Source of the DNA: a virus
Direction: 5' to 3' (one strand)
Length of the DNA: 64,000 nucleotides
Virus record (IMG/VR): IMGVR_UViG_3300031369_000001
Location: 1 to 64,000 of that record
Shown here: positions 15,388 to 60,646 of the stretch, piece by piece
How the letters are laid out: every line of letters starts with the position of its first letter
Position numbering within the stretch: the first letter of the stretch is position 1
The notes under the pieces: model-generated
Told to the model about the DNA's origin: nothing
Databases searched by the model: none
What the model saw: only the letters and a program-made list of their open reading frames with translations
Position numbers and translations under genes: made by a program

Positions 15388-15451
15388 CCCTCGACTTCTA
15401 CTTCGCTCGTCCCCCTCAAGGCGGGTGTTGAAAGGCAGAAAGGAAAGTAAT
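15388..15451 (+). repeat. GC-rich intergenic leader cassette D
   Basis: It starts CCCTCGACTTC after the TGA stop, like cassettes B and C, then becomes AT-richer and ends in an AAAGGA ribosome site. It marks the right edge of the GC-rich repeats. Confidence 0.45.
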
Positions 15452-15688
15452 ATGTATCAGGTAATAGATTGTGCTAGAGGAAATGTGATCGATAGTCAGT
15501 GGGATGATTTCGATGACGCTCTCGTGAGGGCAGGGGAGCTTGCTGCTGAACAGGCTATTGAGGATGTCGAGGTATCGACCTATGAGAATGGTGATGACCC
15601 TCGACGCGGCCCGGGGAACTGGGAGGCGGGGGCGTGTCCGTATGGTGATGGAGGTGGATATTGGACGCATGTTGAATGGGTTGACTGA
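15452..15688 (+). CDS. hypothetical protein
   Basis: A 78-aa protein from the ATG at 15452 (MYQVIDCARGNVIDSQWDDF), which has AAAGGA upstream. An acidic helical middle and a Gly/aromatic end (GDGGGYWTHVEWVD). Possibly a small regulator of host metabolism; no family recognised. Confidence 0.5.
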   Translation: MYQVIDCARGNVIDSQWDDFDDALVRAGELAAEQAIEDVEVSTYENGDDPRRGPGNWEAGACPYGDGGGYWTHVEWVD

Positions 15689-15737
15689 TTTTGACTTTGT
15701 CAAGTGATTGTTGAGGATGAAAAGAAAGGATTTGAAT

Positions 15738-15896
15738 ATGTCATTAGATATTAATTCATATACAGGAGCCCTTGTGTTTTGGTGTCCGGATTGTGGAGCA
15801 CAAGTTGATGAGATGGAAGATAAATGCCCCAATTGTGATTATGATGGTGTGGATGGTTGGGAACCGTCTCCGCCTGCAATAATGGAAGTTTACTAG
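15738..15896 (+). CDS. small zinc-ribbon protein
   Basis: A 52-aa protein from the ATG at 15738 (MSLDINSYTGALVFWCPDCG), preceded by AAAGGA. Two CxxC knuckles, CPDC and CPNC 18 residues apart, make a rubredoxin-like zinc ribbon. Acidic C-terminus. Function unknown. Confidence 0.6.
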   Translation: MSLDINSYTGALVFWCPDCGAQVDEMEDKCPNCDYDGVDGWEPSPPAIMEVY

Positions 15897-15929
15897 GCCT
15901 AAATGGGTGATGAAAGAAGGAGAAGTGTA

Positions 15930-16445
15930 ATGATTAACAAACTTCATAATTCTCTTGCCTTAGCGAGAGAATTCCTTGAAATAGGCGTTATAAATAGCGT
16001 CTCAAAATATTTAGAAGATGCAATGTCAATTGTAGATGATCTTGTGATTGACATTAAAAGCATTAACGACAATCTCCTGACATCTCAGGAGAATGTAGAA
16101 AAACTGTCTGAGACGTTGTCGCGATTATTCTACGACAAGCAACAAAATGAAAATGAAATCAGATTACTTAAAAAAGAAAATTCTCGCGTAAGGCGCGAGT
16201 ATATGGTCTTTAAAGATCATGCGGAAAAAGAATTGTCCCAAGCTCGTTTGTATTGGCATGCAGGGTATAAATCAGAGCAAAATGCTCGTAACTCAGTACG
16301 CCTTTCCTACGAAAGGGAGTGTTTACTATCAGAGATAGCGTACGAGAATAGACAGTTAAAGGAGAAGATGTCATGTGTAAAGAAGTTAGCGGAGCCCGTG
16401 AAATTAAAATTGGTCCATTGCCAGTTTTCATCGAAGATTGCGTAA
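15930..16445 (+). CDS. coiled-coil protein
   Basis: A 171-aa protein from the ATG at 15930 (AAGGAG upstream). The region after residue 40 is an almost unbroken heptad-rich coiled coil (DIKSINDNLLTSQENVEKLSETL...). No catalytic motif. The last 73 bp overlap the next gene in another frame. Possibly a structural or scaffold-type protein, or an antagonist of a host complex. Confidence 0.55.
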   Translation: MINKLHNSLALAREFLEIGVINSVSKYLEDAMSIVDDLVIDIKSINDNLLTSQENVEKLSETLSRLFYDKQQNENEIRLLKKENSRVRREYMVFKDHAEKELSQARLYWHAGYKSEQNARNSVRLSYERECLLSEIAYENRQLKEKMSCVKKLAEPVKLKLVHCQFSSKIA

Positions 16446-34983: not shown

Positions 34984-35676
34984 ATGCTTCCTGTAACGCA
35001 TATTTTTTCTAGACGGCAAACTTGGCCAGGGCAAGTTCCTAAAAGATTAGACCCTATTTGTTATGGGCCGCAAAGATTAGCGGATTTTGAAAAATTTAAT
35101 CAATGGACGCAGTCCACTGTGTCTACTGCTAAAGATGTGGTAGAGGGGCTAGGATTCCCTATTTCTCAAGAAAAGGAGTGGATAACTTTTCTTCAGACGC
35201 AGATTACTGGTCAAAAAAATGAGTTAGAATTTAGAAAATCAGTAGTTCTGAAGGCCATTTCAGATAATTTAGATCCTTTTTTACGGAATATAATTGGCGT
35301 ACGTGCTATTAAATATTTTCGAAATATGAAAAAAAGTATACCTATTTTTATGTTACGAAAAGCGGTTCCTCGAGGAGGTTCTTACTATAGGAGGGTACCT
35401 AAGAAGAATGGAAATGGTTATAATTATTATTATAATCAAGAAACATACGAGCGAAGTAAGGGGGCACATTTAGGTGGCCCTGATACTGTTTCAGGGTATT
35501 TAGGAAATAAAATAAAAAATATTTTGAGTAATGGGGCGCAAAATCCTGAAGTATTTAAAAACCTTGTAAAAAAACATGGTTTAGATAAGATAGAAAGTGT
35601 GATGACTGAGTTACAAAAGAAAGGAAATTTGAAAATCAGTAAAGGTAAATTTTACTGGGTAGAAAGTGAGGGATAA
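34984..35676 (+). CDS. virion-type protein with GGSYYRR linker
   Basis: A 230-aa protein preceded by GGAGGG. The middle contains LRKAVPRGGSYYRRVPKKNG and then YYYNQETYERSKGAHLGGPD, a diverged form of the linker found in the giant fusions, again directly after an LxKA site. Other possible cleavage sites are FRKS, VLKA and MKKS. The C-terminal 70 residues are helical (winged-helix-like: LVKKHGLDKIESVMTELQKKGNLKISKGKFYW). Probably a minor head protein processed by the prohead protease. Confidence 0.55.
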   Translation: MLPVTHIFSRRQTWPGQVPKRLDPICYGPQRLADFEKFNQWTQSTVSTAKDVVEGLGFPISQEKEWITFLQTQITGQKNELEFRKSVVLKAISDNLDPFLRNIIGVRAIKYFRNMKKSIPIFMLRKAVPRGGSYYRRVPKKNGNGYNYYYNQETYERSKGAHLGGPDTVSGYLGNKIKNILSNGAQNPEVFKNLVKKHGLDKIESVMTELQKKGNLKISKGKFYWVESEG

Positions 35677-36059: not shown

Positions 36060-37334
36060 ATGGAAAAGGCAGTTTGGTCAAATGCGCATATGAATGATTT
36101 GCCGGATAGTGCGTTTCTTTATATTGAATCAGGTGGAAAGAAAGATGAAAGTGGTAAAACGGTACCTCGTTCATTGCGTCATTTTCCTTATAGAGGAATG
36201 GATGGTAAAATTGATTTAGCACATGTAAGGAATGCAATTGCCCGCATTCCTCAATCTAAGTGTGGTTTATCGGAACAACAAAAAGTAGCCTTACAGAATA
36301 GGGCTCGTAAATTATTGGAAGGAAAAAAAGAAATGGAAAAAGCAATGTTTCATATTAATTTGCAAAAAGCTGGTCAAGTTTATTATGGGCCTAAAGGCGG
36401 AAAGTATCGAGATCCACAACATAAAATACCTTGGAGCGATAAAGAATTAAAGTATGGAATGACTAAAGAAGAAGGACATATTCAATCTAGTGTATACAAG
36501 ATACATAATACTGCTTCAGATACAGAAGCGTTAAAATTATTTAAAGAAATTACTGGTACATACGGAAATGATAAGATTAAAGAGGTTATTGCTAAACAGA
36601 ATATTCCTATAAGTTCTGGACTAAAAGATGCCTTAAATTCTTATCGTGGAAGAAAAGATTTTATTAATACTTTACAAAATCATATTAATTGGGTCAAGAA
36701 GTATGGGGCGAAAAGAGATAAAGAAGAATCTTCAAACGTTCATGGAAAAATACTTAAAAGTTTAAATGAAGAAATTGAAATCTTAGAGACTTTTTTAAAG
36801 TCTACAATTGAAGATAGTTCTTTACCTATTATTGGAAAAGGTAAGGAACAAGGAGATCAAACATTAGATGGTAAAGGGAAATCTTCTGGCACTCCTGGTA
36901 GTGGTAGTACTGCCCCTGATAGAGGGGTGACAAAACCATCTGTAAAAAAGTTATCTGAAGATGATGAAGTAGACGAGAAAAATATGAAAGATCATAAGAA
37001 GCCTATTGAGAACACTGCAAGGAAAAGCCTTAATCTTTCTACTCACGCACATGACTATATGGCTAGAGAGGTAGCGTTACGAAAGGCTCAATTGCTTAAA
37101 GAAGATTTGGTTTATATTGAACCAGATGAACCTATTCAAAAGTCTATTGAAAATAAAATAATGACCTCTGATGAAATGGCTGTTCTTTCTATGCAGGATG
37201 AATCTTTTTATAAAGCGCATTTACTGAATCGGCCTTTGTCTGGTATTTCTTTAAGTACTGTTAGCAAGTGTAGACATTGCAGTAATACTTTTAGTAAAGC
37301 AATAACAGTTTGTCCGAATTGTGGTCGTATGTAA
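36060..37334 (+). CDS. multi-module head protein with cleavage sites and zinc ribbon
   Basis: A 424-aa protein. Residues 1-93 (WSNAHMNDLPDSAFLYIESGGKK...LAHVRNAIARIPQ) form a small domain seen fused to phage head and protease proteins (DUF6582-like, from memory). Next comes LQKAGQVYYGPKGGKYRDPQHKIPW, a cleavage-type site followed by the conserved linker. A helical region, a low-complexity Gly/Ser segment and a final zinc ribbon CRHCSNTF...CPNCG follow. Many sites of the form LxK[AS] (MEKA, LRKA, IQKS, FYKA, FSKA) are scattered through it. It precedes the portal gene. Confidence 0.6.
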   Translation: MEKAVWSNAHMNDLPDSAFLYIESGGKKDESGKTVPRSLRHFPYRGMDGKIDLAHVRNAIARIPQSKCGLSEQQKVALQNRARKLLEGKKEMEKAMFHINLQKAGQVYYGPKGGKYRDPQHKIPWSDKELKYGMTKEEGHIQSSVYKIHNTASDTEALKLFKEITGTYGNDKIKEVIAKQNIPISSGLKDALNSYRGRKDFINTLQNHINWVKKYGAKRDKEESSNVHGKILKSLNEEIEILETFLKSTIEDSSLPIIGKGKEQGDQTLDGKGKSSGTPGSGSTAPDRGVTKPSVKKLSEDDEVDEKNMKDHKKPIENTARKSLNLSTHAHDYMAREVALRKAQLLKEDLVYIEPDEPIQKSIENKIMTSDEMAVLSMQDESFYKAHLLNRPLSGISLSTVSKCRHCSNTFSKAITVCPNCGRM

Positions 37335-37351
37335 TATAAAGGATTTTGATT

Positions 37352-38944
37352 ATGGGCATTATTAGTACTTTTCAAGAAATGATGCCTATTGCTACGGATT
37401 TGATAAAAGCTAAACTTGAGCAGTCACGACAAGCAATCAATGTTCAAGCACAACAATTATCTAATCCAGCGCAAAAGGCAGATAATGATCCTAAGTCTAT
37501 TTTCTTTGATCCTTATTCCGTAGTAGAGCAATTTGGCTATAAGGATCGTCCTTCATCTATTACGTATGCTACTTTGTGGAATATCTTTTGTAAGCTTCCA
37601 ATTGTTCAAGCAATTGTATTTTTAAGAATGAATCAAGTAGCGGCTTTTGCTACTCCTCAACAAGATAAATTTTCATTAGGATTTCGAGTAGTATTAAAGG
37701 ATAAGGATAAGAATACTACTAAGCAAGAACAGAGATTCATTGCACAGATGAATAATGTTTTATTAAATACGGGAGTAACAAATAATTCTAGAGGCAGAGA
37801 CAGCTTTAAAACTTTTTTAAAGAAATTAGTATTTGATACCCTTATATATGACCAAATGTGTTTTGAAATAGTTCCTAATAGAAAAGGTCTCCCCGCCGAA
37901 TGGTATGCTACAGATGCAGCTACCATTAGAATTGCAGATAATGGGAATGTATTTAATGATGAAGACAAAACAAAAGAGATCAGATATGTACAGGTATATG
38001 ATGGGGTAGTGATTAACGAATATACCCAATATGAAATGGTATTTGGTGTAAGACACCCTAATACTAATATCAGGCTTCAAGGATATGGGGTAAGTGAATT
38101 AGAATTATTGGTGTCTACAATTACTTCCTTATTGTATGGCCATCAATACAATCAGAAGTTTTTTACACAAGGTTCTAGTGCCAAAGGTATTTTGAATTTT
38201 AAAGGAACAACTAATGCTAAGCAACTTGCTGAATTCAAAAGGCATTGGTACACTTTACTTTCTTCGGTTAATAACGCATGGAAAACTCCTATAACTAATA
38301 CCGAGGGTATCGAATGGGTTAATATGCAGCAGACACATAGGGATATGGAATTTTCTGCGTGGATGGATTTTCTTATTAAAGAAGCTTCTGCTGTATATGC
38401 AACTGATCCAGCAGAAATTAATTTTAATTACGGTAATACTGGTCAATCGAGAGCTTTAGTTGAAAGTTCTTCTGCTGAAAAAATTATAGAAAGTAAAGAG
38501 CGCGGACTACGTCCCTTATTAAATGACGTAGGGGAATTAATTGCCATTCATATAGTGGAACCTATTAACCCTGATTTTACTTTTGAGTTTATGGGGCTTG
38601 ATGCAGAAACAAAAGATAGTGTTGCTAAAAGAAATCAACAAAGAGTTCAAACCTATATTACGGTAAATGAATTAAGGGCTGAAGAAGATAGACCTCCATT
38701 GCCAGATGAACAAGGGGATATTATACTGAATCAGGTTTACATTCAGAACAAACAGCAAACACAAGCAATGCAGCAACAAGAAGAAGGTGATCAAAACGAA
38801 AACGGAATGACACAAGATGAAGAAGGTGATGATGGAAAACAAGATATAAGATCTTTATTATCTAAATATTCTGAGGATGATTTAGTTGATCAAAATGAAG
38901 ATGATGAAGTAAAGAAAAGTTTAGTATTGGATGTAGTTTTATAA
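37352..38944 (+). CDS. portal protein (HK97-like)
   Basis: About 530 aa from the ATG at 37352, eight bases after AAAGGA. The layout is that of HK97/SPP1-type portals: an N-terminal clip of helices, LPIVQAIVFLRMNQVA, beta-rich wing, YGVSELELLVSTI and the long stem helix SAEKIIESKERGLRPLLNDVGELIAIHIVEPINPDFTFEF. The portal is the dodecameric ring for DNA entry. The C-terminal tail is acidic and Gln-rich and ends VKKSLVLDVVL, a possible cleavage site 8 residues from the end. Confidence 0.85.
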   Translation: MGIISTFQEMMPIATDLIKAKLEQSRQAINVQAQQLSNPAQKADNDPKSIFFDPYSVVEQFGYKDRPSSITYATLWNIFCKLPIVQAIVFLRMNQVAAFATPQQDKFSLGFRVVLKDKDKNTTKQEQRFIAQMNNVLLNTGVTNNSRGRDSFKTFLKKLVFDTLIYDQMCFEIVPNRKGLPAEWYATDAATIRIADNGNVFNDEDKTKEIRYVQVYDGVVINEYTQYEMVFGVRHPNTNIRLQGYGVSELELLVSTITSLLYGHQYNQKFFTQGSSAKGILNFKGTTNAKQLAEFKRHWYTLLSSVNNAWKTPITNTEGIEWVNMQQTHRDMEFSAWMDFLIKEASAVYATDPAEINFNYGNTGQSRALVESSSAEKIIESKERGLRPLLNDVGELIAIHIVEPINPDFTFEFMGLDAETKDSVAKRNQQRVQTYITVNELRAEEDRPPLPDEQGDIILNQVYIQNKQQTQAMQQQEEGDQNENGMTQDEEGDDGKQDIRSLLSKYSEDDLVDQNEDDEVKKSLVLDVVL

Positions 38945-39730: not shown

Positions 39731-40201
39731 ATGGCTAGGAAAGATGAGATTGAGAGTATAGAAAAAGTATTACAACTTTATACTCAACAAATGGATAGCC
39801 AAATTACTAGGTTCAATGAAATTGTGATTGAGCAATCGATTCAAATTGGAAAGCAATCTGTTAATTTTGAAAGACTAGAGCGGACTGTAGCGCAAGAAGT
39901 ACTTCCAGTGATTAAAGAGCTTCCTGGATTGATAGAGCACGGCATTAGATTAGCCCAAGATACTTGTCCATTGTATAAAGCTTGGGATAGGAAAGAAAAA
40001 GAATCAGTAGGAGATAAATTGGGTTCTTTATTTGATTCTAAACCACCAAATAAAAAGAAATTTACAATATCTACTAATCTTAAAATTAGATTAATTGAAG
40101 CGCTTATTCTTTTACTTCTATCCCTTGCGGCATGGTTTGGTATAAGTAGTTACAATGAACCTTTTTCAGTTGCTGATAAAGCAGTAACAACCCATAAGTA
40201 A
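39731..40201 (+). CDS. coiled-coil protein with C-terminal membrane helix
   Basis: A 156-aa protein. The first 90 residues are coiled-coil-like; one membrane helix LIEALILLLLSLAAWFGI lies near residues 121-138, with the C-terminus following. The layout recalls phage membrane proteins such as holin-like or spanin-like factors, but nothing specific is seen. Confidence 0.5.
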   Translation: MARKDEIESIEKVLQLYTQQMDSQITRFNEIVIEQSIQIGKQSVNFERLERTVAQEVLPVIKELPGLIEHGIRLAQDTCPLYKAWDRKEKESVGDKLGSLFDSKPPNKKKFTISTNLKIRLIEALILLLLSLAAWFGISSYNEPFSVADKAVTTHK

Positions 40202-40202: not shown

Positions 40203-43200
40203 ATGCACATACAAATAGAAGCAAAGAAGGAAGAACTTTTTTCCAAAAGAGTTTCTTTAGTAAAGTCTATCGCTGATTGCATTGGAGAAGTAGATTCTGA
40301 TTTAAAAAATCGTTTAATAAAAGCGATAGACAATAAAGACAAATTGTTTACTGATCCAGTTTTACTAGAAGTATTGAAGCAATGGGAAATAGGTTATAAA
40401 GACCAAACCAATGCGATGCTTGTTGATATAAGTAAAGTATTGGATAAGGGAAAATTAAATAAGAGTCTTAGTTCTGATCCTTCTTGGATTGGTGTTGATT
40501 TAGATAGGACGTTAGCTGAATATCATGAATATAAAGGCCCTGCTTCTATCGGTAAGCCAATTCCTAGAATGGTTGATAGGGTTAAGGAATGGATTGCTAA
40601 TAATAAAAATGTAAAAATTATGACCGCTAGGGCAAATCCAAATTCTAGCGATTTTAGAGCATCTATTACTGCTATAAAGAAATGGTGCAAAAAATATATT
40701 GGAGAAGAATTACCGGTAGTATACGAAAAAGATCTGCATATGGTTGAACTTTGGGATGACCGAGCTATTCAGATTAAACCTAATACGGGTATTAGGGCAG
40801 ATGGATTAAATAAAAGTGAAGATGAAGGTATTTCATATTTTCATTACGATATAGATACAGATTCCTATATTGAAGACTATAATGAATATTTAAATAAAGC
40901 ACAAAAAGGTCCATTCATTGGTCCACGTGGAGGTAAATGGGCTGATCCAGAACACACCATACCTTGGAAAGAAGAAGTACACAGCTACTCAGAAACTAAA
41001 GACCGATATAGTGATGAAGAAGCTGAACAAATTTTAGATAGAATAGGCGAGGCTTTATATAGTCATCAAGCAATTAATCCTCGTGAAAAAGATGATACTG
41101 GATTTAGTTATGTGGATATGGACAGATGGAGATCTGTAACTGGTGTAAATGCAAAGAGACAATTACTTCAAAAATATAAACGCCAAATAGTCGGTGCTTA
41201 TAGTATTGAAGAATATCATAAATTAGGATTAGCAGATGTAAGAGAAGGTAAGGGATATAAAGCGAACATTAAACCTTATTATAATAAAACTTGGGGAAGC
41301 CTCACCCTTCCGGTAGATGGAAGGGTTGATAGAGATACCTTTAATAAATTTAGAGAGATTAATAGAAAACATAATGTGTGGTTTAGTAATGGCGATAACT
41401 TTATTAAAGAACAATATTTAGATGATTTTGATTTTGAATCTTATAAGAAGGATATGGGGGAAATAGGCATAAAAGTTCACCCAATTAAGGGGGAACGAAA
41501 ACAAAATGTATCTGAAAAAGACGAAAAGGATCTTACTGTAGATGAAGCTTTGCAAAGCATTAAAAATAGAAGGATTAAGGATGCAATTGTTCTTAAGAAA
41601 ATAGGTAAAGATAAATTTGCTTTTTGGTCTACCTATTCTCCAGAATTTAATGATTTGTTTTCTAATAAAACTGGTGGATTGTCCGGTATTTTTTACGCAA
41701 ATAAAGATAATAATTGGGCTAGAGAAACGCATGAATTGAATCTAGTAGAAGAAGCTTTACAACAGATAAAGAAGCAATTGCCTAATTATAAGTTGTATAT
41801 AGATGAAGAAGGTTTGAAAGAAGCACAAAATGAAAAAGCGAGATATCAAGCTGAATTACAAAAGCCAATTCCTGAAGTACAGAAATTATTAGATAGTAAA
41901 TATTCATTATTTCCTTATCAAAATGAAGCAGTGCATTTTTTAGATAAAACAAATGGAAATGCCTTAATTGGGGATTCCATGGGACTTGGAAAAACGCTTG
42001 AAACTTTGGCTTGGTTGGCTAAAGGAAATAAGAAAACAATTTTAGTTGTTCCGAAAGTAGTAAGGCGTACTTGGTTACAAGAAGCAGATAAGTTTTTTCC
42101 AGGGCAGTTTAAAGGAACTGAATTAGTGTCTTCTGATATAAGAAATAATAGAGTTCCAAATTTTAAAGATAAGAACCTTGTAACTGTTAATTATGAATCT
42201 TTAGATAAGTTTTATCCTTATTTAAAGGATGCTGGTTTTGATACAGTAGTAGTTGATGAATCACATAGGATGAAGAATCCTAAAGCTAAACAGACAAAAG
42301 CGATTCAAAAGGTATCGGCATTAGTAAATCATCATATTTTATTGTCTGGAACAGCGGTTAAAAATAAAAAAGAAGAGTTGTTTACCCAGTTAGAAGTTGT
42401 TGCGCCAGGTAAATTTACATCTAAAAATCAAATAAAATTTGCTACTATTGGCGGACTTTGGCGCGATATGAAGGATTTCTATATTGCGAGGAGTAAGGAA
42501 GAAGTTCTAAAAGATTTACCTGAAAAAGTCACTTCTATTATTCAACAAGACATACCTAATTTACCTGATTATGGTGCAAATAAAGATATTGGGGATATTG
42601 CTAAAATTAAAGCTTCTGTAGCAATTGGAAAAGTTCCTGCTACTATTGATTTGGCTAAAGAGATACTAGGTTCTTCTGATTCAAAGATAATTGTGTTTAC
42701 TGATTCAGTTGAGGCAGCTAAAAAGATTCATGAAGAATTAGGTGATATTTCTTTATTGCACCATGGGCAAATGAGCGATGATAAAAGGGAAGCGGTAAAG
42801 GAAGAATTTCAAAAAACAGATGGTAATGGTGATTTCATTTCTCCTAAACGGGTATTCGTAACTACTCGTCAGTCAATGGCTGTAGGAGCTACTTTAACCG
42901 CTGCTGATAAAGTCATTTTTAATGACTTACCTTGGACTGCTGCTGATTTACGACAAGCAGAGGATAGAGCACATAGAATTGGGCAAAAGAACAACGTAAA
43001 TGTTTATTGGGTCACTGCTTCGAATAATTTATTTGATTCTTCAGTTACGGAGATAATTAAAAGGAAATATGAATTATCTAAAAAAGTAAATCAGGGAAAG
43101 AAGCTGACGCAAGAAGAAATTGCATGGATGAATAAGCCGTTAACGGTTAGTGATATATTGAATAAAATACATGGAGGTAAAACGCCTATAGAAGAAGAAA

Positions 43201-45011
43201 AACAATTGCTGATTAAAGAAAATAAACCTGAAGTTCCTGTTATTCCGATAGAAGTACCTAAACAAGAAGAAGAGCAGAAGCCTAAATTTATTATGCAAGA
43301 ACCTGTAAAAGTTAAAGAATCTAAAGATATAATAGATATAAAAAAAGATATTAAAGAAACACAAAATAAGATTGATAAATTAAGAGATAGACAATTAAAA
43401 GATTGGCAATCTGGATCTATAACTCGTAAAAGGACAACTACATATAATGCTGAAATAAGTCGACATAATGATAGGATACAAGAATTAAAAAAGCTTTTAA
43501 ACAAATATGAAGAAAATATTAGTGTAATACAAGAAAAAGAACCTGTAAAAGTTGAAACACAAGAACCTGTTAAAAAGAAACGTGGAAGGCCTCTTGGTTC
43601 TAAAAACATTAAAAGAGTTGCTATTCCTCCAATGGTTATCCAAGAACCTGAAAAAAAGAAAAGAGGGAGACCTCCTGGTTCTAAAAACAAAATGACTCGA
43701 GTTGCTATTAAAGAAGTAACACCTCCTACATTTAAACGAGAAGCTATAAAAGAGGAACCTGTTAAACAAGGTAGGGGAAGGCCACCAAAGCCACAAAGTG
43801 TAAAAGAAGCGGAATCTAGTTTAGCTTACGTTTCTGCTAAGAATATAAAACTTAAAAAAGTTGCTTCTGATGACGTTCACGATGTCTATCAAACTAATTT
43901 TTCTATAGACGTAGATGACGCCAAAATAGCTATGAATAATTTACGTGAGCAAGGTATCAATGCAACGGTGCTAGAAGGAGATCCAGGAATAGTTAAAATA
44001 AGAAAAGGTTTTATAATTAGTGAATCTGATTTATATAAAGCCTTATTCATAGGACCTAAAGGTGGTAAATGGGCAAATGCTGAACATACCATACCTTATC
44101 AAGAAGATATAGTTCGAAAACCTGTTAAGCGAGAACCACCTGGTTCACAGTTAGCAATTGACGTACAAAATAAATTAAAAGAATTGAAAGTAGACAAATT
44201 ACCTCAATCTACTATTCCAATTTCAGACATTAGAATTGATTTAACAGGTAATGTTGATACAAAAGCAATCATTACTTGGAAAGATACTAAAGGAAAAGTC
44301 CAAAGTGGTTATACTCCAAAATTCCATGAAATAAATGCTAAGGAAAAATGGGATAGAATTAATAAATTTAGAAGTAAGAAAAAAGAAATTGTAAATACAT
44401 TAAATGAAAAATTGATTAAGGGGAAACCCGGTAGTATTGACCACCAAGGTTATACTATATTAGCCATTATTGCAGAAACAGGATTACGTCCAGGTAGTAC
44501 TGAAAGTGTTAGAAAGCATGGTCATTACGGTATAAGTACTTTAAAAAAGGATCACATTGCTTTAAATAATAAAATGGCTGTTTTAAATTTTATTGGCAAA
44601 GAAGGAAAGAAGAATGTTACAGTGATTCAAAATCCTGTTACGTTAAAAGCTTTAGAGTATTACGTAAGCAATGCTACCGAAAATGGTAGTATATTTAATT
44701 CCAATGCTTTGGATACTGGTAAAACCATACTTCCTAAAGGAATGAAGGTGAAAGACCTTAGAACAATTAAGGCCACCGAATCAGCGGAAAGATTATTAAA
44801 AGAAGTTGACACTCCTCCTCCATTAACCGGAGATAGTAAAAAGGATAAACGATTATTAGCAAAGGCATTGTTGGAAACAAGTAAAAAAGTGGCTACAATA
44901 TTGAATAATACTCCTAGTATTGCAAAGGCTAGTTATATCCATCCAATGGTATTTGAACAATGGGCAAAAAGTGTAGGAGCATCTGAAAAACTTTGGAAAG
45001 AGGTAGGTTAA
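40203..45011 (+). CDS. giant fusion: HAD domain, SNF2 helicase, AT-hooks, topoisomerase IB
   Basis: A 1602-aa protein. Order: LNKS site (85-88); HAD-like domain with VDLDRTLAEY (D99, D101), MTARA and WDDRAI; sites LNKS near 202 and LNKA near 230 followed by the linker GPRGGKWADPEHTIPW; SNF2 helicase with GDSMGLGKT near 590, DESH near 685 and AEDRAHRIGQ near 917; three AT-hooks (KKRGRPLG, KKRGRPPG, GRGRPPK, 1125-1195); LYKA near 1277 followed by GPKGGKWANAEHTIPY; then type IB topoisomerase with TGLRPGS, FIGKEGKK, KDLRTIKAT and SYIHP with probable catalytic Tyr1578. The AT-hook region also carries KRVAIP, TRVAIK and KREAIK. It is probably cut into parts by the prohead protease and carried in the virion. 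Confidence 0.85.
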   Translation: MHIQIEAKKEELFSKRVSLVKSIADCIGEVDSDLKNRLIKAIDNKDKLFTDPVLLEVLKQWEIGYKDQTNAMLVDISKVLDKGKLNKSLSSDPSWIGVDLDRTLAEYHEYKGPASIGKPIPRMVDRVKEWIANNKNVKIMTARANPNSSDFRASITAIKKWCKKYIGEELPVVYEKDLHMVELWDDRAIQIKPNTGIRADGLNKSEDEGISYFHYDIDTDSYIEDYNEYLNKAQKGPFIGPRGGKWADPEHTIPWKEEVHSYSETKDRYSDEEAEQILDRIGEALYSHQAINPREKDDTGFSYVDMDRWRSVTGVNAKRQLLQKYKRQIVGAYSIEEYHKLGLADVREGKGYKANIKPYYNKTWGSLTLPVDGRVDRDTFNKFREINRKHNVWFSNGDNFIKEQYLDDFDFESYKKDMGEIGIKVHPIKGERKQNVSEKDEKDLTVDEALQSIKNRRIKDAIVLKKIGKDKFAFWSTYSPEFNDLFSNKTGGLSGIFYANKDNNWARETHELNLVEEALQQIKKQLPNYKLYIDEEGLKEAQNEKARYQAELQKPIPEVQKLLDSKYSLFPYQNEAVHFLDKTNGNALIGDSMGLGKTLETLAWLAKGNKKTILVVPKVVRRTWLQEADKFFPGQFKGTELVSSDIRNNRVPNFKDKNLVTVNYESLDKFYPYLKDAGFDTVVVDESHRMKNPKAKQTKAIQKVSALVNHHILLSGTAVKNKKEELFTQLEVVAPGKFTSKNQIKFATIGGLWRDMKDFYIARSKEEVLKDLPEKVTSIIQQDIPNLPDYGANKDIGDIAKIKASVAIGKVPATIDLAKEILGSSDSKIIVFTDSVEAAKKIHEELGDISLLHHGQMSDDKREAVKEEFQKTDGNGDFISPKRVFVTTRQSMAVGATLTAADKVIFNDLPWTAADLRQAEDRAHRIGQKNNVNVYWVTASNNLFDSSVTEIIKRKYELSKKVNQGKKLTQEEIAWMNKPLTVSDILNKIHGGKTPIEEEKQLLIKENKPEVPVIPIEVPKQEEEQKPKFIMQEPVKVKESKDIIDIKKDIKETQNKIDKLRDRQLKDWQSGSITRKRTTTYNAEISRHNDRIQELKKLLNKYEENISVIQEKEPVKVETQEPVKKKRGRPLGSKNIKRVAIPPMVIQEPEKKKRGRPPGSKNKMTRVAIKEVTPPTFKREAIKEEPVKQGRGRPPKPQSVKEAESSLAYVSAKNIKLKKVASDDVHDVYQTNFSIDVDDAKIAMNNLREQGINATVLEGDPGIVKIRKGFIISESDLYKALFIGPKGGKWANAEHTIPYQEDIVRKPVKREPPGSQLAIDVQNKLKELKVDKLPQSTIPISDIRIDLTGNVDTKAIITWKDTKGKVQSGYTPKFHEINAKEKWDRINKFRSKKKEIVNTLNEKLIKGKPGSIDHQGYTILAIIAETGLRPGSTESVRKHGHYGISTLKKDHIALNNKMAVLNFIGKEGKKNVTVIQNPVTLKALEYYVSNATENGSIFNSNALDTGKTILPKGMKVKDLRTIKATESAERLLKEVDTPPPLTGDSKKDKRLLAKALLETSKKVATILNNTPSIAKASYIHPMVFEQWAKSVGASEKLWKEVG
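40914..40979 (+). repeat. linker repeat shared with the MuF fusion gene (copy 1)
   Basis: These 66 bp, coding FIGPRGGKWADPEHTIPWKE and flanks, match 49529-49594 with only three differences. The two giant genes thus share DNA-level homology at module borders. Confidence 0.9.
43576..43790 (+). other. AT-hook region
   Basis: This codes three RGRP-type AT-hooks, two of them as KKKRGRPLGSKN and KKKRGRPPGSKN, plus GRGRPPKP. AT-hooks bind the minor groove of AT-rich DNA, which fits the base composition of this genome. They are rare in phage proteins. Confidence 0.8.
44032..44104 (+). repeat. 73-bp exact repeat shared with the MuF fusion gene (copy 1)
   Basis: The stretch coding YKALFIGPKGGKWANAEHTI and flanks is identical base for base to 48465-48537. 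Third codon positions are also identical, so the copying is recent. Confidence 0.95.
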
Positions 45012-46582: not shown

Positions 46583-47132
46583 AATTCCTATACAGCGATG
46601 GACTGAATTACGAATGCAATATGCATTAACTAGGAAAAATAATCTTTTTGACTTTGGAAGATATGCAGTTGTTCCGAATATTGGTTGGGGGTTAGGACTT
46701 AATCACGAACCTGATTTATTGTGTTTATCTAAAACTGGGATATTTCATGAAGTAGAGATTAAAGTAACTATGGCTGATTTGAAAACAGATAAAGATAAGT
46801 GGCATAATCATTATTCTAGATTTGTTAAACACCTATGGTTTGCTATTCCAGACATTTTATCTATAGATAAGGTTTTAAGCGAAATTCCTGATTATGCTGG
46901 ATTAGTTCAAGTGAGTACTTATTACAATGAATATCCATATAATCAAAAATATTCAAGACAAAAGTATTTAACTCATATAATTAGAAAACCTAGACCAAAA
47001 TTACGAAAAGGGTTGTTTACCGACCCTAAACAAGACACTATTATAAAATTTTTAAGGATTGGAGTTTTGCGAATGTGGACAGATACCTATAGGTTTAAAC
47101 ATTTTGACCGACAAGTAATATTAAAGGGGTGA
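46575..47132 (+). CDS. MmcB/PD-(D/E)XK-like nuclease
   Basis: A 185-aa protein with EPDLLCLSKTGIFHEVEIKVTMADLKTDKDKWHNHY and YAGLVQV. The EPD...EVEIK spacing is a PD-(D/E)XK active site, and the following DLxxDxKWxxY matches MmcB-type DNA repair proteins. The N-terminus MNRIPIQRW is a copy of the recurrent basic motif. Likely DNA end processing. Overlaps the DHH gene by 8 bp. Confidence 0.65.
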   Translation: MNRIPIQRWTELRMQYALTRKNNLFDFGRYAVVPNIGWGLGLNHEPDLLCLSKTGIFHEVEIKVTMADLKTDKDKWHNHYSRFVKHLWFAIPDILSIDKVLSEIPDYAGLVQVSTYYNEYPYNQKYSRQKYLTHIIRKPRPKLRKGLFTDPKQDTIIKFLRIGVLRMWTDTYRFKHFDRQVILKG

Positions 47133-47137
47133 TTATT

Positions 47138-50100
47138 ATGCCGTTAACTCCTGATCAAATATTAGAAATCCAAGATATAATTGAATTACATCATAATGCA
47201 TTTATAGCTAATACAATTGGTCATGATGCGTTACCTGATGAAGTAATTGATGAATTACGAGATAAAGGATTATTGAATAAAGAATCTAAAGACCTTATTA
47301 AGAAGATATATGAATACGGTCAAGTGCTTGGTAAATTGAATAGTCCCCAAGCTTCACAGATGTCCTATAATAGATTTGAAGATTATATTCAAAAAAATCC
47401 ACAACCGTTAACGCAAATGCAACAACGAGCTGTTCGTATGGCCCAAGTGAATGCCGGTCAGTATTGTATGGGATTAGGAAATATAATTGAAAAAGATACG
47501 GGAAGAACTTTAATAGAAGCAGATCAAAGATTTAGAATTGCATATGAGGATAAAATAAAAAATCTTACTGCTTTAAATGCTGCAAGAAGAGAGAGTATTG
47601 AAAAGCTTAGAAGTGATTTAGGTTGGTCTACAGGGGATTGGGCTAGGGATATGAAACGAATTGCTGTAACTGAAATAATGTATTCAACGCAGCAAGGACA
47701 AGCGGATTACCTTAGAAAGAAATATGGAGAAGATGTTTTTGTTGCACGTATTCCTAATCCAGGGGCGTGTAAGCATTGTATTCGTTTACATATTGGTCCA
47801 GATGGGCAGCCTAGAATATTTAAATTATCTACTTTAGAGGAACATGGTAGTAACGTAGGACGAAAACAAAATGATTGGCAAGCTGTAGTTGGCCCAGTTC
47901 ATCCTAATTGTGTATGCAACATGATTAGTGTTCCAAAGGGATGGGGATTCAATGAAGAAGGAGACTTGCTTCCAGGAGGTAAGTTAGGGGAAATATATTA
48001 TGAACCAGAAGAATTAGAAAGGGCTTTAATTGAAGAAAATCTTTTTTATAAATCTTTAAAGGCTAAGGTTAATATAGTTTTCCAAGGAATTCCTATTGTT
48101 ATTGAAACTCCAAAAGGAGATAAGCGAAAATGGATTAATGGAGATGGTTCGATAGGGGAAACCATTATGCAGGAAGCTTCTTATGGATTCGTAAAAAATA
48201 CTACTTCTATGGATGAAGAAGAATTAGATGTATTCGTTGGACCATTTAAAGATTCACCTGTAGTTTATATAATTGATCAAAAGAATCCGGATAATGAACT
48301 ATATGATGAACAGAAATGTATGCTTGGTTTTCGAAATGAAGAACATGCATTAAATGTATATAGAATGAATTACGATAATCCAGATAAATTTATTTATGAC
48401 TGTAGTTCGATGGATATAGAAGCCTTTAAGAGATGGTGTGGGATAGGTATTATTCGAGAAGAAATATATAAAGCCTTATTCATAGGACCTAAAGGTGGTA
48501 AATGGGCAAATGCTGAACATACCATACCTTATCAAGATCCTAGTTTAGCAATGAGAAATAAAGCTAGTAATTTTTATGATGGATTGATTAGTTGGGTAAA
48601 GGATAATAAAGATAATTTACAATTTGATTCAAATGGAAATGTTTATATACAGGCAAATCAATTTACAAATGATAAAAATTTATCGCATTTACATATACTG
48701 ATTACTCCTAAAGGAGTTTTTAGAGGCAATGGTATTGGTAAAACTAGTGATGGGAAAGATGTATTAGTGTTAACTAATTTAAGAAATCCATATGATACTA
48801 CTTATTTAGACACTAGAATAACTAGTAGAGTTATTATACACGAAATATCTCATTATCTTAATGCTGGATACGATAAAGTTCATAATATAGTAACTGAGCA
48901 TGGTAAAGAATATTATAATCAATCTGTCGAATTTGATGCATTTTGGAATGAAGGTGCTGGGGAATTGGAAAGATTTATTCGTAATTTTAAAGACACAAAT
49001 CAACATCATATATTTGAAAGGATAGTAGGAAATTCTCCTGATTTTAAGTACTTTAATAGTAAAGTAAAATCTTTTTGGGATAAAACCTTTTTGAATAGTT
49101 TAACAGAAGCTAATAAGAAAAAATTTGATAAAAGATTATATAGATTATGGGATGATTTAAAAAGCAATATCTATAAATCTAATTACGATTTATCCCCTGG
49201 TCCAGGTTCTGGATTGAATTTCTTTTTAGGTACTAATGTAAATAAACCGAATAGTGGAGGAACTATTCGATATAAAGAAGTATTGGAATTAGGTAAAGAG
49301 GAATTAGAAAAACGTAAAAAGCAAAAAGGTAATAAAGGTATTTACGGGGATATAGAGGATTATCAATTTGGCGAAAACATTATACCGGTTAAAGAATTGA
49401 TAATTCCTGAGACCGTAAAAGAGTCTAAGAAAGAAGCACGGAAGAAAAATAAGGATGTGAATAAATTTGTACTTACTAGAAGATTAAAATGGAAAAAAGG
49501 AAATGTAAATAATTTAAATAAATCATTGTTCATTGGTCCACGTGGAGGTAAATGGGCTGATTCAGAACATACTATACCTTGGAAAGAAGAAGTATCAACA
49601 AATGGTAAATTTGTTGATACTAACGATAGTGCTTTAAGTAACGTATTGGCGGAATTGTTGGGAAAAAATATTCATTTAGAAAAAGTTAGGGAAACAGATA
49701 AAGAGTTGTTTTATAGAGGGGGTAAGGAGTTACTTATTGGTGCTAAGAAGCTAATTAATGCTTTAAAAAATAAAGGATTTAAGGTAGAAATAATTCCGCA
49801 AGGAAAGAACCTTCCTATAGTTGTTTTGAATAAGCCAATAAAAAAAGAACCAATAAAGAAAGAACCAATAAAGAAAGAACCAATAAAGAAAGAACCAATA
49901 AAGAAAGAACCAATAAAGCTATCCAGTGATGAAGTTATAAAACAAGATAAAGTTTTAAAGGATAAAAAGATTTTTAACAAATTAAGTAGTGATTATGTTA
50001 ATAGGATTAATAATATTTACAAAGTATTAAAAGACGATAAAGATTTTAAATACTTTGTAAAATCTATTGGTCATACTAATGTAAAAGATACTATTGAATA

Positions 50101-50683
50101 CTTAATTAATAAATGGAATGAGACAGGAAGTGACCATGATATACATTTAATTATTTTACAAAAAGCTGCGATGGATGAGTTTGGATTGGATAGTGGGACG
50201 ATTAAACATTTTGATAAGAAGTTATTAAATAAGGTACATAAAATACCTAAAACTGTTATGGGGGCAAGAAAATTTATAAGAGCGCAGTATAGTCTTACAC
50301 AAGAATATCTAAAAAAACAGGGGATATCGGAAATTATTCTGTTTAGAGGAATGCAACTTAAAAAGATTAAAAGTGATGGTAGGTCTAAAGAGATTGAAGT
50401 TACTTCCCAACCTCTATCTTCTTGGTCTACTTCTTTTTCAGAGGCTAAAGATTTTTCTGTAAGGGGGGCAGTTGGTAGTTCTTCTTTTTCTAGTGTTTTA
50501 TTGTCTAAAAAAGTTCCTATAGAACAAATATTTTCTATACCAAAGGTTGGTATAGGTGAAAGTGATGAACAAGAATGCGTTTTACTTGGAAATAAGAAAG
50601 ATCCTGAAAAAGTGATTTCTTTAGCTGCTGATTATCATTATATGTATAATATTAATGTAAAACAATTATATGGAGAAAAGTAA
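47138..50683 (+). CDS. giant fusion: MuF, pyrophosphatase-like, metalloprotease, ADP-ribosyltransferase
   Basis: About 1181 aa from the ATG at 47138 (AAAGGGG upstream). Modules in order: SPP1 gp7/MuF head domain with C211KHC214 and HPNCVCN near 258; FYKS near 303; inorganic-pyrophosphatase-like domain (IETPKGDKRKW, YGFVKNT, EEELDVFVGP, DEQKCMLGF), a known MuF-polyprotein partner; IYKA near 443 and GPKGGKW linker; zincin protease with H568EISH572; L793NKS and GPRGGKW linker; a KKEPI repeat; and a C-terminal ADP-ribosyltransferase-like domain with R1070 (LFRGMQL), SWSTS near 1096 and EQE near 1145. MuF proteins enter the capsid with the portal, so these modules are probably delivered into the host. 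Confidence 0.82.
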   Translation: MPLTPDQILEIQDIIELHHNAFIANTIGHDALPDEVIDELRDKGLLNKESKDLIKKIYEYGQVLGKLNSPQASQMSYNRFEDYIQKNPQPLTQMQQRAVRMAQVNAGQYCMGLGNIIEKDTGRTLIEADQRFRIAYEDKIKNLTALNAARRESIEKLRSDLGWSTGDWARDMKRIAVTEIMYSTQQGQADYLRKKYGEDVFVARIPNPGACKHCIRLHIGPDGQPRIFKLSTLEEHGSNVGRKQNDWQAVVGPVHPNCVCNMISVPKGWGFNEEGDLLPGGKLGEIYYEPEELERALIEENLFYKSLKAKVNIVFQGIPIVIETPKGDKRKWINGDGSIGETIMQEASYGFVKNTTSMDEEELDVFVGPFKDSPVVYIIDQKNPDNELYDEQKCMLGFRNEEHALNVYRMNYDNPDKFIYDCSSMDIEAFKRWCGIGIIREEIYKALFIGPKGGKWANAEHTIPYQDPSLAMRNKASNFYDGLISWVKDNKDNLQFDSNGNVYIQANQFTNDKNLSHLHILITPKGVFRGNGIGKTSDGKDVLVLTNLRNPYDTTYLDTRITSRVIIHEISHYLNAGYDKVHNIVTEHGKEYYNQSVEFDAFWNEGAGELERFIRNFKDTNQHHIFERIVGNSPDFKYFNSKVKSFWDKTFLNSLTEANKKKFDKRLYRLWDDLKSNIYKSNYDLSPGPGSGLNFFLGTNVNKPNSGGTIRYKEVLELGKEELEKRKKQKGNKGIYGDIEDYQFGENIIPVKELIIPETVKESKKEARKKNKDVNKFVLTRRLKWKKGNVNNLNKSLFIGPRGGKWADSEHTIPWKEEVSTNGKFVDTNDSALSNVLAELLGKNIHLEKVRETDKELFYRGGKELLIGAKKLINALKNKGFKVEIIPQGKNLPIVVLNKPIKKEPIKKEPIKKEPIKKEPIKKEPIKLSSDEVIKQDKVLKDKKIFNKLSSDYVNRINNIYKVLKDDKDFKYFVKSIGHTNVKDTIEYLINKWNETGSDHDIHLIILQKAAMDEFGLDSGTIKHFDKKLLNKVHKIPKTVMGARKFIRAQYSLTQEYLKKQGISEIILFRGMQLKKIKSDGRSKEIEVTSQPLSSWSTSFSEAKDFSVRGAVGSSSFSSVLLSKKVPIEQIFSIPKVGIGESDEQECVLLGNKKDPEKVISLAADYHYMYNINVKQLYGEK
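48465..48537 (+). repeat. 73-bp exact repeat shared with the topoisomerase fusion gene (copy 2)
   Basis: Identical to 44032-44104. It marks the start of the metalloprotease module. Confidence 0.95.
49529..49594 (+). repeat. linker repeat shared with the topoisomerase fusion gene (copy 2)
   Basis: It matches 40914-40979 with three differences in 66 bp and marks the start of the ADP-ribosyltransferase-side module. Confidence 0.9.
49841..49915 (+). repeat. 15-bp tandem repeat coding KKEPI
   Basis: Five units of AAGAAAGAACCAATA (the first with one change) code (KKEPI)5, a flexible basic linker before the ADP-ribosyltransferase-like domain. Such arrays change in copy number easily. Confidence 0.9.
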
Positions 50684-57530: not shown

Positions 57531-58322
57531 ATGCCTCAAGAAATTCCTACAAATGATTTTAGACTTTCTGTAGGAGAAGCTTCTTTTTTTACAAAAGCTT
57601 CAGCTCCCGAAGGACAACAACGTCGAATAGGTGGTGTTGTTTCTACAGAAACTCCGGATAGACAAGAAGAAACTCTTATTCAAAATGGTTTAGATTTTTC
57701 TGAATTTGTAAAATATGGTTGGTTTAATGACAACCATTCTAATCCTAAAGTGAGTCATACCTGTAATTTAGTAGGGTATCCTGAGTTAACTGAACGTTTT
57801 CAAAAAGGTGATAGGTTGCCTGATGGAAAAATTGCAAAAGCAGATTGTCATTGGGCAGAGGGGTATTTGTTAGAAGGTTATTCACCTGCTGATGAATTGT
57901 GGAATCTTGCCTGTGCCTTAAATAAGACCCCCCGTAGATTGGGTTTTTCAGTTGAAGGTAAAATTCAACGAAGAGATCCATTAAATAAGTCTACTGTTAC
58001 AAAGGCAATTGTTAGAGAAGTAGCAATTACAAAAGCCCCTGTTAATACAGATACACAATTAAATATATTAGCAAAGGCTCTTTCTATGGGTACTTCTATT
58101 CCAGGCAATTCTGTCGATGGAGATAAAACCGGGGAAAATGCTGGGCAAGTTCTTGCTCAGGAATCCTTAGAGAAGAAAAAGAAAAAGAATTTAAAAAAAG
58201 GTTTAACGGATAGTCAAGCGTTTGCTTGGTTATCTAATCATTTACCCAATATATCCCCTGAATTAAAAGGGAGAATAATCTCGTTGACTCGGGATTTAAA
58301 ATTGCAAAATAAATTGCATTAA
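57531..58322 (+). CDS. prohead protease (HK97 gp4-like)
   Basis: A 263-aa protein. The family core is clear: GGVVSTETPDRQEE, the catalytic His in NDNHS (H69) and the catalytic Ser in RLGFSVEGKI (S140). Such serine proteases cut scaffold and capsid inside the prohead. The C-terminal part has LNKS, VTKA, ITKA and LAKA sites, and FTKA lies near the N-terminus, suggesting self-processing at the same motif as in the scaffold and the giant fusions. It starts the head operon. Confidence 0.85.
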   Translation: MPQEIPTNDFRLSVGEASFFTKASAPEGQQRRIGGVVSTETPDRQEETLIQNGLDFSEFVKYGWFNDNHSNPKVSHTCNLVGYPELTERFQKGDRLPDGKIAKADCHWAEGYLLEGYSPADELWNLACALNKTPRRLGFSVEGKIQRRDPLNKSTVTKAIVREVAITKAPVNTDTQLNILAKALSMGTSIPGNSVDGDKTGENAGQVLAQESLEKKKKKNLKKGLTDSQAFAWLSNHLPNISPELKGRIISLTRDLKLQNKLH

Positions 58323-58338: not shown

Positions 58339-59157
58339 ATGAAAAGACAGCCAATGCAAAATGATGATGAGATGAAGAACAAGAAAGATCAGATGGATGA
58401 GGATAACGAAGATTCTCAAATGGAAGAAGAAGAAAAGTCTTGCGGTACTAAGAAATCACAAGACCTAACCGAAGATGACCTCAGTAAAGCTGTTGAGGTA
58501 TTAAATGATTATGTCAATACGACTGATCCAAATTCTCGAAAAGAGACTTTATTGAAAAAAGCAATGACTGATGATCTTTCTTCTGAAGAGATGAATGAAC
58601 TATTTAAATCTTTAAGTGGTTCTGAAAATTCAAATACGGAAGAAGTTAATGATTTTTCTGATTCTGTTCTTAATTCATTAGAATCTGATACTATTCAGAA
58701 ATCATTAGATGTTTCTGATTATTTAACAGAATTGCATAGTGGATTAGTTAAATCGCTTAGTACGTTAGAAGGAGAATTAAATAGTAATGCTATGCGTCAG
58801 CATACATTTAATATTACTCTTGCTAAGAGCATGGTTTCTGTTGTTACTGGGTTACAGCGTACAATGAATGTTATTTCTGAATTAAAAAAATCTATGGACA
58901 ATTATAGTGAAGCCCCTATTAGAAAGCCAACATCTGTTCAACCTTTAAACAAAGCTTTTGTTGGACACAATGGGCAAGAAGGGCAGTCTTTAAAGAAATC
59001 TGAAATGATGGGACAATTACTCTATCTTGCAGAGCAAGGAGTTGATAACATTGGGGGAGTTAGTGTAAATCATGCGGTTGCTTTACTGGAAAGTAGCAAT
59101 CAATTACCTAATCAAGTTGTTAGTGCTTTAAAAGCTAGACAAGGAGCTACTGCTTAA
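58339..59157 (+). CDS. scaffolding protein with repeated protease sites
   Basis: A 272-aa acidic, helical protein between protease and capsid genes, the usual scaffold position. It contains LSKA, LKKA, LFKS, IQKS, LVKS, LAKS, LKKS (twice) and LNKA, about one site per 30 residues, which fits a scaffold that is chopped up during maturation. The N-terminus MKRQPMQNDDE is a degenerate form of the basic motif. Confidence 0.75.
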   Translation: MKRQPMQNDDEMKNKKDQMDEDNEDSQMEEEEKSCGTKKSQDLTEDDLSKAVEVLNDYVNTTDPNSRKETLLKKAMTDDLSSEEMNELFKSLSGSENSNTEEVNDFSDSVLNSLESDTIQKSLDVSDYLTELHSGLVKSLSTLEGELNSNAMRQHTFNITLAKSMVSVVTGLQRTMNVISELKKSMDNYSEAPIRKPTSVQPLNKAFVGHNGQEGQSLKKSEMMGQLLYLAEQGVDNIGGVSVNHAVALLESSNQLPNQVVSALKARQGATA

Positions 59158-59215: not shown

Positions 59216-60646
59216 ATGTTAGAGAACATGGTTAGTTTTTCAGATTATGATGGCATCGAGGGATATGGAAGTGTTCAGCAGCAAGAAGTAGTTGACTTGA
59301 ATAAAGCTTTAACTGCTGGACAAGATATAGCGGCGCCTACTGTTGCTGCTGGAGAAGGCTTTCCTTTACGGGTTGAGTCTTTAGAGAATACCTTAAAAAC
59401 GGTTACCTTTACGGCAAAAGAAATTGTTTTTTGGAAAGCTATTCCCAAAATCCCTGCATACAATACGGTGGAAGAGCATAATCAGATTTCGAATTATGGA
59501 TCTAATGAGGATTCTGGATTCATTCCGGAAGGTGCGCTTCCTGAAAGTGATGATTCTACTTATGCGCGAAAGTACGCGGTGGTAAAGTTTTTAGGTACTA
59601 CTCGATCTGTAACTCATGTAATGAGTCTCGTTCGGCCAGCGCATGGTAACGTTATCGCCAATGAAACCGTTAATGGAACATTGCATTTACTTCGTATTTT
59701 GGAAAAAGCTCTTTATTACGCGGATTCTTCTTTATCTGCTGTTCAATTTGATGGCTTTAATAAGCTAATTACGGATAATGCAGATTCTGATCATGTATTA
59801 GATTTAAGAGGAGCGCCTCTTACCGAGGATATTTTATCGGACGCAGTAGCTACTGTTAGAACTTCTTATGGATTTCCTACTCATCTTCATTTAAACCATA
59901 AGACTAAGTCGGAATTAACTAAGACATTTTTCCCCAAAGAGCGACATAATACTTTTACTGATAATAGTGGTATTATTGGTAATAACATTACTGGGTTTAC
60001 TTCTGAATCAGGTATCGTTCAATTTGTAAGTAATACTTTTCTTACTGGTAACACTGCTTCTTATAATTCCGCAGCAATTGGGGACGCAACTAAAATCCCT
60101 GGAACACCTACTATCAGTACTTCATTAGCTGCTTCTGGTACGGCAGCTCCGTTATGGACTGCGGATGATGCTGGGAGCTATTATTGGACTGTCGTTGCGT
60201 GCAATCGTTATGGGAGGTCAGCTCCAGTGGACGCAAATGAGGCCGGAGGTGCTTTTGCCGTTGCCACTACGCAAACAGTTACTTTTGGTGTAACACCGTC
60301 AACTACTGGAGGTGCCGGGGCTACTGAATGGTACGAAATTTATCGTACTAAAAAGGGTGGGGCGGATGGTACGGAGAAATTAATTCAACGTATCGTGAAC
60401 TCTAATACTACAAGTGAACAAACAATTACGGATTTGAATGCAAGTCTCCCGGACACTACCAATGCCTTTTTACTTCAGCAGAATATTGATAGTCTTTCAT
60501 TTAAACAATTAGCTCCGATGGTTAAAATCCCATTAGCGACTATTGCGACAGCCGTTCGTTGGTGTCAGGTTCTTTATGGGGTTCCTGTGCTTTATGCCCC
60601 GAATAAGAATTTCTTATTTAAGAATGTGGGAAAGAATAACTACTAA
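59216..60646 (+). CDS. major capsid protein (HK97 fold) with inserted Ig/Fn3-like domain
   Basis: A 476-aa protein preceded by AAAGGAG. The N-terminus has LNKALTAGQDI near residues 28-38: an LxKA site whose cut would leave a mature start similar to HK97 gp5. The core shows an HK97-type E-loop/spine and C-terminal LATIATAVRWCQVLYGVPVLYAP. Residues about 290-405 (GTPTISTSLAASG...AGSYYWTVVACNRYGRSAP...EWYEIYRTKKGG) look like an inserted fibronectin III/Ig-like domain, probably displayed on the capsid surface. GC content is higher than nearby, as in strongly expressed genes. Confidence 0.85.
   Translation: MLENMVSFSDYDGIEGYGSVQQQEVVDLNKALTAGQDIAAPTVAAGEGFPLRVESLENTLKTVTFTAKEIVFWKAIPKIPAYNTVEEHNQISNYGSNEDSGFIPEGALPESDDSTYARKYAVVKFLGTTRSVTHVMSLVRPAHGNVIANETVNGTLHLLRILEKALYYADSSLSAVQFDGFNKLITDNADSDHVLDLRGAPLTEDILSDAVATVRTSYGFPTHLHLNHKTKSELTKTFFPKERHNTFTDNSGIIGNNITGFTSESGIVQFVSNTFLTGNTASYNSAAIGDATKIPGTPTISTSLAASGTAAPLWTADDAGSYYWTVVACNRYGRSAPVDANEAGGAFAVATTQTVTFGVTPSTTGGAGATEWYEIYRTKKGGADGTEKLIQRIVNSNTTSEQTITDLNASLPDTTNAFLLQQNIDSLSFKQLAPMVKIPLATIATAVRWCQVLYGVPVLYAPNKNFLFKNVGKNNY

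Follow-up and report, generated by a model that had tools for sequence, protein, structure and literature searches.

Does a phage protein that joins several unrelated enzymes in one chain work as one machine, or is it a set of enzymes made as a single chain and then taken apart? Polyvalent proteins have been proposed to be multi-tools injected together with phage DNA, and how their large chains get loaded and become working enzymes is mostly unknown. The question is raised here by an open reading frame (ORF) of 1602 aa in the IMG/VR virus record IMGVR_UViG_3300031369_000001, of which positions 1 to 64,000 form the stretch analysed (64,000 nucleotides, hereafter the window). A preliminary description of the window had read the ORF as a HAD phosphatase, an SNF2 helicase, AT-hooks and a type IB topoisomerase (TopIB) acting as one virion-associated DNA-topology and chromatin kit. 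We infer that it is probably a packaged polyvalent precursor, cut by the phage's prohead protease into separate enzymes, because the joints between its modules carry a probable capsid-protease site followed by a short tag. The features of the ORF are as follows, with a slash marking each predicted cut.

40203 to 45011, + strand: the 1602-aa ORF, candidate polyvalent precursor; ATG start, single intact frame
40203 to 40463, + strand: N-terminal leader (aa 1-87) with conserved LVK/S, LIK/A and LNK/S sites
40455 to 40466, + strand: putative protease site LNK87/S88 before the HAD module, kept in all three relatives
40464 to 40898, + strand: HAD phosphatase piece (aa 88-232, 16.7 kDa); DLDRT at 99, TAR at 141, EKD at 175, WDDR at 184
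40890 to 40901, + strand: putative protease site LNK232/A233
40899 to 40973, + strand: cassette tag 1, AQKGPFIGPRGGKWADPEHTIPWKE
40989 to 43232, + strand: conserved region (aa 263-560) and SNF2 ATPase (aa 561-1010), a single unit behind tags in other phages
43581 to 43592, + strand: AT-hook 1 (RGRP, aa 1127)
43662 to 43673, + strand: AT-hook 2 (RGRP, aa 1154)
43773 to 43784, + strand: AT-hook 3 (RGRP, aa 1191)
44031 to 44042, + strand: putative protease site LYK1279/A1280; LxKALFIG is kept and its middle residue varies (Y/R/Q)
44040 to 44108, + strand: cassette tag 2, ALFIGPKGGKWANAEHTIPYQED, with a 73-nt stretch the same as the copy at 48465-48537
44103 to 45008, + strand: TopIB cassette (aa 1301-1602), catalytic Tyr1578; recognised by Pfam, PDB, model and residues

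That HAD, SNF2, three AT-hooks and a complete TopIB share one frame, as the preliminary description held, is confirmed. The SNF2 ATPase matches Pfam SNF2-rel_dom (aa 572-781, E 2.9e-24) and Helicase_C (aa 818-927, E 6.5e-14), and carries Walker A (GDSMGLGKT, at aa 590), DESH (685) and HRIGQ (924). No Pfam methylase match in the 1602-aa ORF points to an adenine methylase before the helicase, as in DarB, and the one PHROG named DNA methyltransferase that matches does so in the helicase region only. The TopIB module matches Pfam Topoisom_I (aa 1374-1595, E 8.4e-17) and, by sequence, the Deinococcus and variola TopIB entries in the PDB; its catalytic Arg (GLRPG), Lys (GKxGK), Arg (KDLRT) and Tyr1578 (SYIHP) are kept in every full-length relative, with Asn (NNT) at the usual His position, like the GNT of Deinococcus. 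Its AlphaFold model (mean pLDDT 83) gives the TopIB fold that the preliminary description anticipated, variola TopIB being the top fold match (3.4e-12). For the HAD region, which has no Pfam match and no PDB sequence match, structure prediction is less decisive: HAD enzymes are the best Foldseek matches of the model (pLDDT 81), T4 Pnkp 3'-phosphatase first (prob 1.00), but with a TM of only about 0.42 and an E of 4.8e-3, that is, not below 1e-3. The HAD motifs DLDxT, TAR, KD and WDDR are nevertheless invariant or nearly so across 37 relatives, and this HAD is often encoded by phages as a protein of its own. The predicted AT-hooks consist of an RGRP core with a basic flank in three copies; RGRP is absent from all other ORFs of the 102.6-kb contig, each relative likewise has three, and the hooks are limited to a three-phage clade. 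Finally, the search among related phages that had been proposed finds the complete architecture in two contigs, L001 and L002 (best-segment identity to the 1602-aa ORF 87% and 88%, respectively). With dN/dS (omega) at about 0.03-0.12 across relatives, the enzyme modules are under purifying selection.

The placement of the ORF in a head operon is likewise borne out by its neighbours, and a terminase is also encoded with the head genes.

36060 to 37334, + strand: ORF of the head operon, carrying a degenerate tag and 10 hxK[AGS] sites (3.1 expected)
37346 to 38944, + strand: portal protein, upstream of the 1602-aa ORF
47129 to 50683, + strand: downstream polyvalent ORF with MuF, InPase, tag, HEISH zincin-like region, tag and ART-like region
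57531 to 58322, + strand: SPO1 gp3.2-type prohead protease (phrog_1028, 5.6e-30; SPO1 gp3.2 homologue)
58339 to 59157, + strand: scaffold
59216 to 60646, + strand: major capsid protein, with predicted propeptide cut LNK30/A31 (nt 59297-59308)

Head-operon proteins that combine several enzymes have been described as polyvalent proteins (Iyer et al. 2017, PMC5512222), and the 1602-aa ORF shares their marks: several unrelated domains in one polypeptide, a location among portal and head genes, and ties to the polyvalent domain network through its own SNF2, the InPase of the neighbouring ORF and the network domains that follow the same tag in other phages. Some of the neighbours are variable. The ORF upstream of the portal encodes 424 aa in the window (36060-37334) and 766 aa in L001 (2819-5119), where it has extra tag-headed segments, and both versions end in a Cys-rich zinc-ribbon-like tail. 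The ART-like C-terminus of the 47129-50683 ORF has the motifs FRG, SWSTS and EQE (zincin and ART are assigned by motif only), and its zincin-like cassette is missing in L002. A small ORF just before the 1602-aa ORF (39731-40201) has a C-terminal predicted hydrophobic segment (LIEALILLLLSLAAWFGI) and no Pfam or PHROG match. Elsewhere in the window, positions 12001-16000 stand out with a GC content of 43%, against about 33% in the remainder.

Closer inspection of the module joints reveals a repeat that the preliminary description had overlooked. The 1602-aa ORF contains two copies (40900-40972 and 44032-44104), and the large ORF that follows contains another two (48465-48537 and 49515-49587). 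A putative protease site precedes each copy, and the repeat encodes FIGP(R/K)GGKWAxxEHTIP(W/Y). Across phages the tag runs to about 20 aa, GP-F/Y-I-GPRGGKWADPxHTIPW. A scan of IMG/VR for GP(K/R)GGKWA gave 115 stretches, and after removal of duplicates we count about 160 tags across about 100 uncultivated phage contigs. GTDB holds the tag in just 3 contigs, and tblastn with a 27-aa query found no match among 50,697 phage records (INPHARED), a query short enough that diverged copies may be missed. A folded domain is not indicated, as the tag has no Pfam or PHROG match and a pLDDT of about 34-41; it is therefore probably disordered. The copies at 44032-44104 and 48465-48537 are identical over 73 nt though they lie in different genes, which suggests recent copying of the tag between cassettes. 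As a general rule, a role as a recent recombination site is not borne out: tags within a contig are barely more alike in nucleotide identity than GC-matched tags from other contigs (0.74 vs 0.71), so that the 73-nt identity in the window is an exception.

What follows the tags is the effector repertoire known from polyvalent proteins, judged by domain matches. Among 148 segments behind tags, Pfam recognises InPase (6), zeta toxin (6), ART-PolyVal (5), TopIB (4), RelA_SpoT (3), DarA_C (3), SAM lyase (2), ddrB-ParB, SNF2 and others, and PHROGs add minor head protein and 'released from the phage upon host infection' families; most segments match no Pfam family. In most other carriers of the unit at aa 263-1010, a tag precedes it by 24-48 aa (one, L107, has no recognisable tag), and elsewhere SNF2 stands behind a tag with neither HAD nor TopIB. 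Conversely, TopIB follows a tag without SNF2 in L016/L212, where an InPase-like region precedes it, and in L097/L213, where a zincin-like region does. A second tag family, hxK[AGS]..GGKYxRRVP..YRYYY, occurs in the window at 34984-35676 (LRKAVPRGGSYYRRVPKKNGNGYNYYY), in L001 at 2819-5119 and in L093, L109 and L058; its body differs, and the lysine site precedes it in 15/15 cases.

The lysine site itself is the most constant element of the joints. Scored as [LIFMVYW]-x-K-[AGS] within 14 aa upstream, hxK[AGS] precedes 150/161 tags (93%), against 8-9% of control windows, and with one representative per flank cluster it is found in 40/43; few tags lack it. Position P3 is Leu in 102/150 of these sites and P1' is Ala, Gly or Ser. 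When every residue was tried at P1, lysine was by far the most enriched (93%), the only other rise being that of glycine (15% vs 5%), probably because GG follows the site. Twenty-six tag ORFs open with a short leader whose end is a site directly ahead of the tag. A second site occurs 9-26 aa upstream of 50 internal tags, as if a short peptide were excised. Sites are rarer inside recognised domains (68 vs 91 expected) and commoner outside them (315 vs 175).

Several observations connect this site with head maturation. In the window, the protease has 8 hxK[AGS] sites (1.3 expected) and the scaffold 9 (1.4 expected), while the remainder of the genome is near expectation (131 vs 107). Fifteen related scaffolds have 8-14 sites each, where about 1.4 are expected, and SPO1 has 11 in its scaffold (1.35 expected) and 8 in its protease; no such excess is seen in the scaffold of Listeria phage A511 (2 vs 1.6), where the consensus may therefore be looser. 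The annotated mature start of the A511 capsid protein, directly after EDALK, is in register with LNK/ALTAGQ in the window and LNK/ALEAGH in SPO1. Among contigs with a tag and a length of at least 50 kb, 20/20 encode an SPO1-type protease, against one weak partial match in 20 tag-free contigs picked for carrying the HAD protein, a co-occurrence that is supportive but not fully independent, because some of the tag contigs fed the protease alignment. Residue P1' differs between the two settings, being frequently glycine before tags and A or S in scaffolds. On these grounds the site before the tag looks like one that the phage's own SPO1-type prohead protease would cleave. The tails of these proteases have a further peculiarity: right after an LAK/[AS] site they resemble the N-terminal arm of the mature capsid protein from the same phage (phmmer E 1.5e-7 to 2e-3; window 57531-58322, L078 2033-2830, L026 8424-9374), and positions 163-210 of the protease profile also match capsid genes.

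In the 1602-aa protein, putative sites of the form [LFIMV]-x-K-[AGS] divide the HAD, SNF2 plus AT-hook and TopIB modules from one another, and SNF2 and TopIB each follow a tag. The predicted junction sites K87, K232 and K1279 are conserved in both L001 and L002. Counted over the full protein, the motif shows no enrichment (14 vs 10.6 expected, p 0.17) because it is also present inside folded domains, TopIB for example, so the argument rests on placement at the junctions. Cuts at the three lysines would yield pieces of 10.0, 16.7, 119.6 and 35.8 kDa (computed), the first being the leader, a possible propeptide.

If the precursor reading is correct, the 1602-aa chain would be loaded into the procapsid and cut after lysine at head maturation by the SPO1-type prohead protease, as would the scaffold and capsid protein. 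The pieces released would be HAD (88-232, 16.7 kDa), SNF2 with the AT-hooks, which would stay on it (233-1279, 120 kDa), and TopIB (1280-1602, 36 kDa); the latter two would each begin with a disordered tag, most likely serving loading, retention or ejection, and all would enter the host together with the DNA. There, to judge by enzyme class, the SNF2 motor, held on AT-rich DNA by its hooks, may translocate and displace bound proteins, and TopIB, separately from it, may relax supercoils arising from early transcription or translocation; the DNA acted on could be that of the host or the phage DNA coming in.

The claim of a single virion machine thus stands in part. Its modules, the head operon and the polyvalent repertoire all agree with it, but the junction sites and tags do not, and we set aside a single-chain chromatin machine, a reading made less likely by phages in which the same tag heads an SNF2 or a TopIB cassette without the other. 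Its nearest surviving form, which we consider unlikely, is that the chain is packaged and injected uncut, with the tag as a flexible shuffling linker and all modules acting together on one DNA. A translocase tethered to a swivel would be sensible, the tag is disordered by prediction with near-identical copies that suggest recombination, and N4 vRNAP as well as plasmid ArdC and TraC1 are reportedly delivered uncut (PMC5512222). An uncut chain nevertheless leaves unexplained why hxK[AGS] is near-invariant before tags and dense in scaffold and protease, why the mature end of the A511 capsid protein matches, why leaders end at the site, why the protease co-occurs, and why TopIB is found without SNF2 elsewhere.

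More doubtful again is that site and tag together form a binding motif for a head component, with lysine needed for recognition and the cargo uncut or cut by something else, such as the zincin-like domain of the neighbouring protein. One protein of the L001 contig starts MNK/A-tag, retaining the site at its very beginning, and the lysine could therefore belong to the tag instead; packaging of P1 DarB needs no more than its first 30 residues (PMC9024508), the neighbour does have a HEISH zincin-like motif, and polyvalent proteins have been suggested to undergo MPTase processing (PMC5512222). A binding motif fits poorly, however, with a site that abounds in scaffold and protease without any tag, that coincides with the propeptide boundary of the capsid protein, and that the second tag family retains (15/15) with a different body. 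That the protein is an unpackaged enzyme of replication-time DNA metabolism, among head genes by chance, is very improbable: the stretch also includes DHH and MmcB-like genes, and the SNF2 helicases of many phages are ordinary early proteins, but the ORF sits between the portal and MuF/InPase genes and shares its tags with head-linked polyvalent proteins, protease sites included.

Returning to the precursor reading, we see about an even chance that it extends to a general cargo code in uncultivated phages with SPO1-type heads, in which an interchangeable head for effector cassettes, built from a scaffold-like propeptide, a cut site at lysine and a tag of about 20 aa that is retained, would let several enzymes be synthesised as a single polyprotein, co-loaded into the procapsid and separated by the capsid-maturation protease before injection. 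The site-plus-tag unit would then be a sequence rule that marks module boundaries and predicts exact mature N-termini, and it suggests that a single protease governs both capsid maturation and cargo release. If true, the tag reveals new injected effectors from sequence alone and could load chosen proteins into phage heads, and a TopIB and an SNF2 motor take their place among the proteins that may accompany phage DNA into the host. In the open-licence literature we found no description of a site-plus-tag unit that recurs at the head of cassettes (a text search with the tag letters gave nothing), of TopIB in a polyvalent protein or of the HAD/SNF2/AT-hook/TopIB set, and no direct precedent for a virion TopIB or a lysine consensus of a prohead protease.

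Comparison with known systems places the ORF closest to the polyvalent proteins, which are likewise large head-operon proteins joining unrelated enzymes, SNF2 ATPases included, and whose repertoire (ART, zeta toxin, RelA/SpoT, DarA_C, ddrB-ParB) is also found behind tags elsewhere. Their description stresses processing by metallopeptidases, whereas the site in the window points to the head-maturation protease; its main text has no AT-hooks or linker tags, and mentions topoisomerase only in a reference title (PMC5512222). The Dar proteins of P1 (DarB, DarA, DdrB) are similar in being a head-packaged antirestriction set with an SNF2-type helicase (DarB), in which a short N-terminal stretch directs packaging and DarA is thought to be processed. 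P1 differs in its protease, its capsid protein being cut at E120/S121, and DarB combines its helicase with a methylase but lacks TopIB; the P1 Dar proteins have no reported tag of this kind. Short N-terminal sequences target proteins to the capsid in T4 as well as in P1 (PMC9024508), and head proteases trim packaged proteins in T4 and SPN3US (PMC10052503). The internal proteins of T4 and the ejection proteins of SPN3US and phiKZ are thus a parallel for trimming of packaged, ejected proteins at a short consensus by a prohead protease, but the cuts there mostly strip N-terminal propeptides off single cargoes, whereas the internal sites in the window would separate several enzymes, and the tag, unlike those propeptides, lies after the cut and would stay on the cargo. 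SPO1 and A511 (Herelleviridae) have a homologous protease and capsid protein with the propeptide boundary in register, and the scaffold and protease of SPO1 are site-dense; in contrast to the window, where polyvalent cargo genes lie between portal and protease, their records gave no match to the short tag query. Lastly, poxvirus and Deinococcus TopIB have the same fold and active-site residues as the enzyme found here, which is built as the C-terminal, tag-headed cassette of what is probably a polyvalent precursor.
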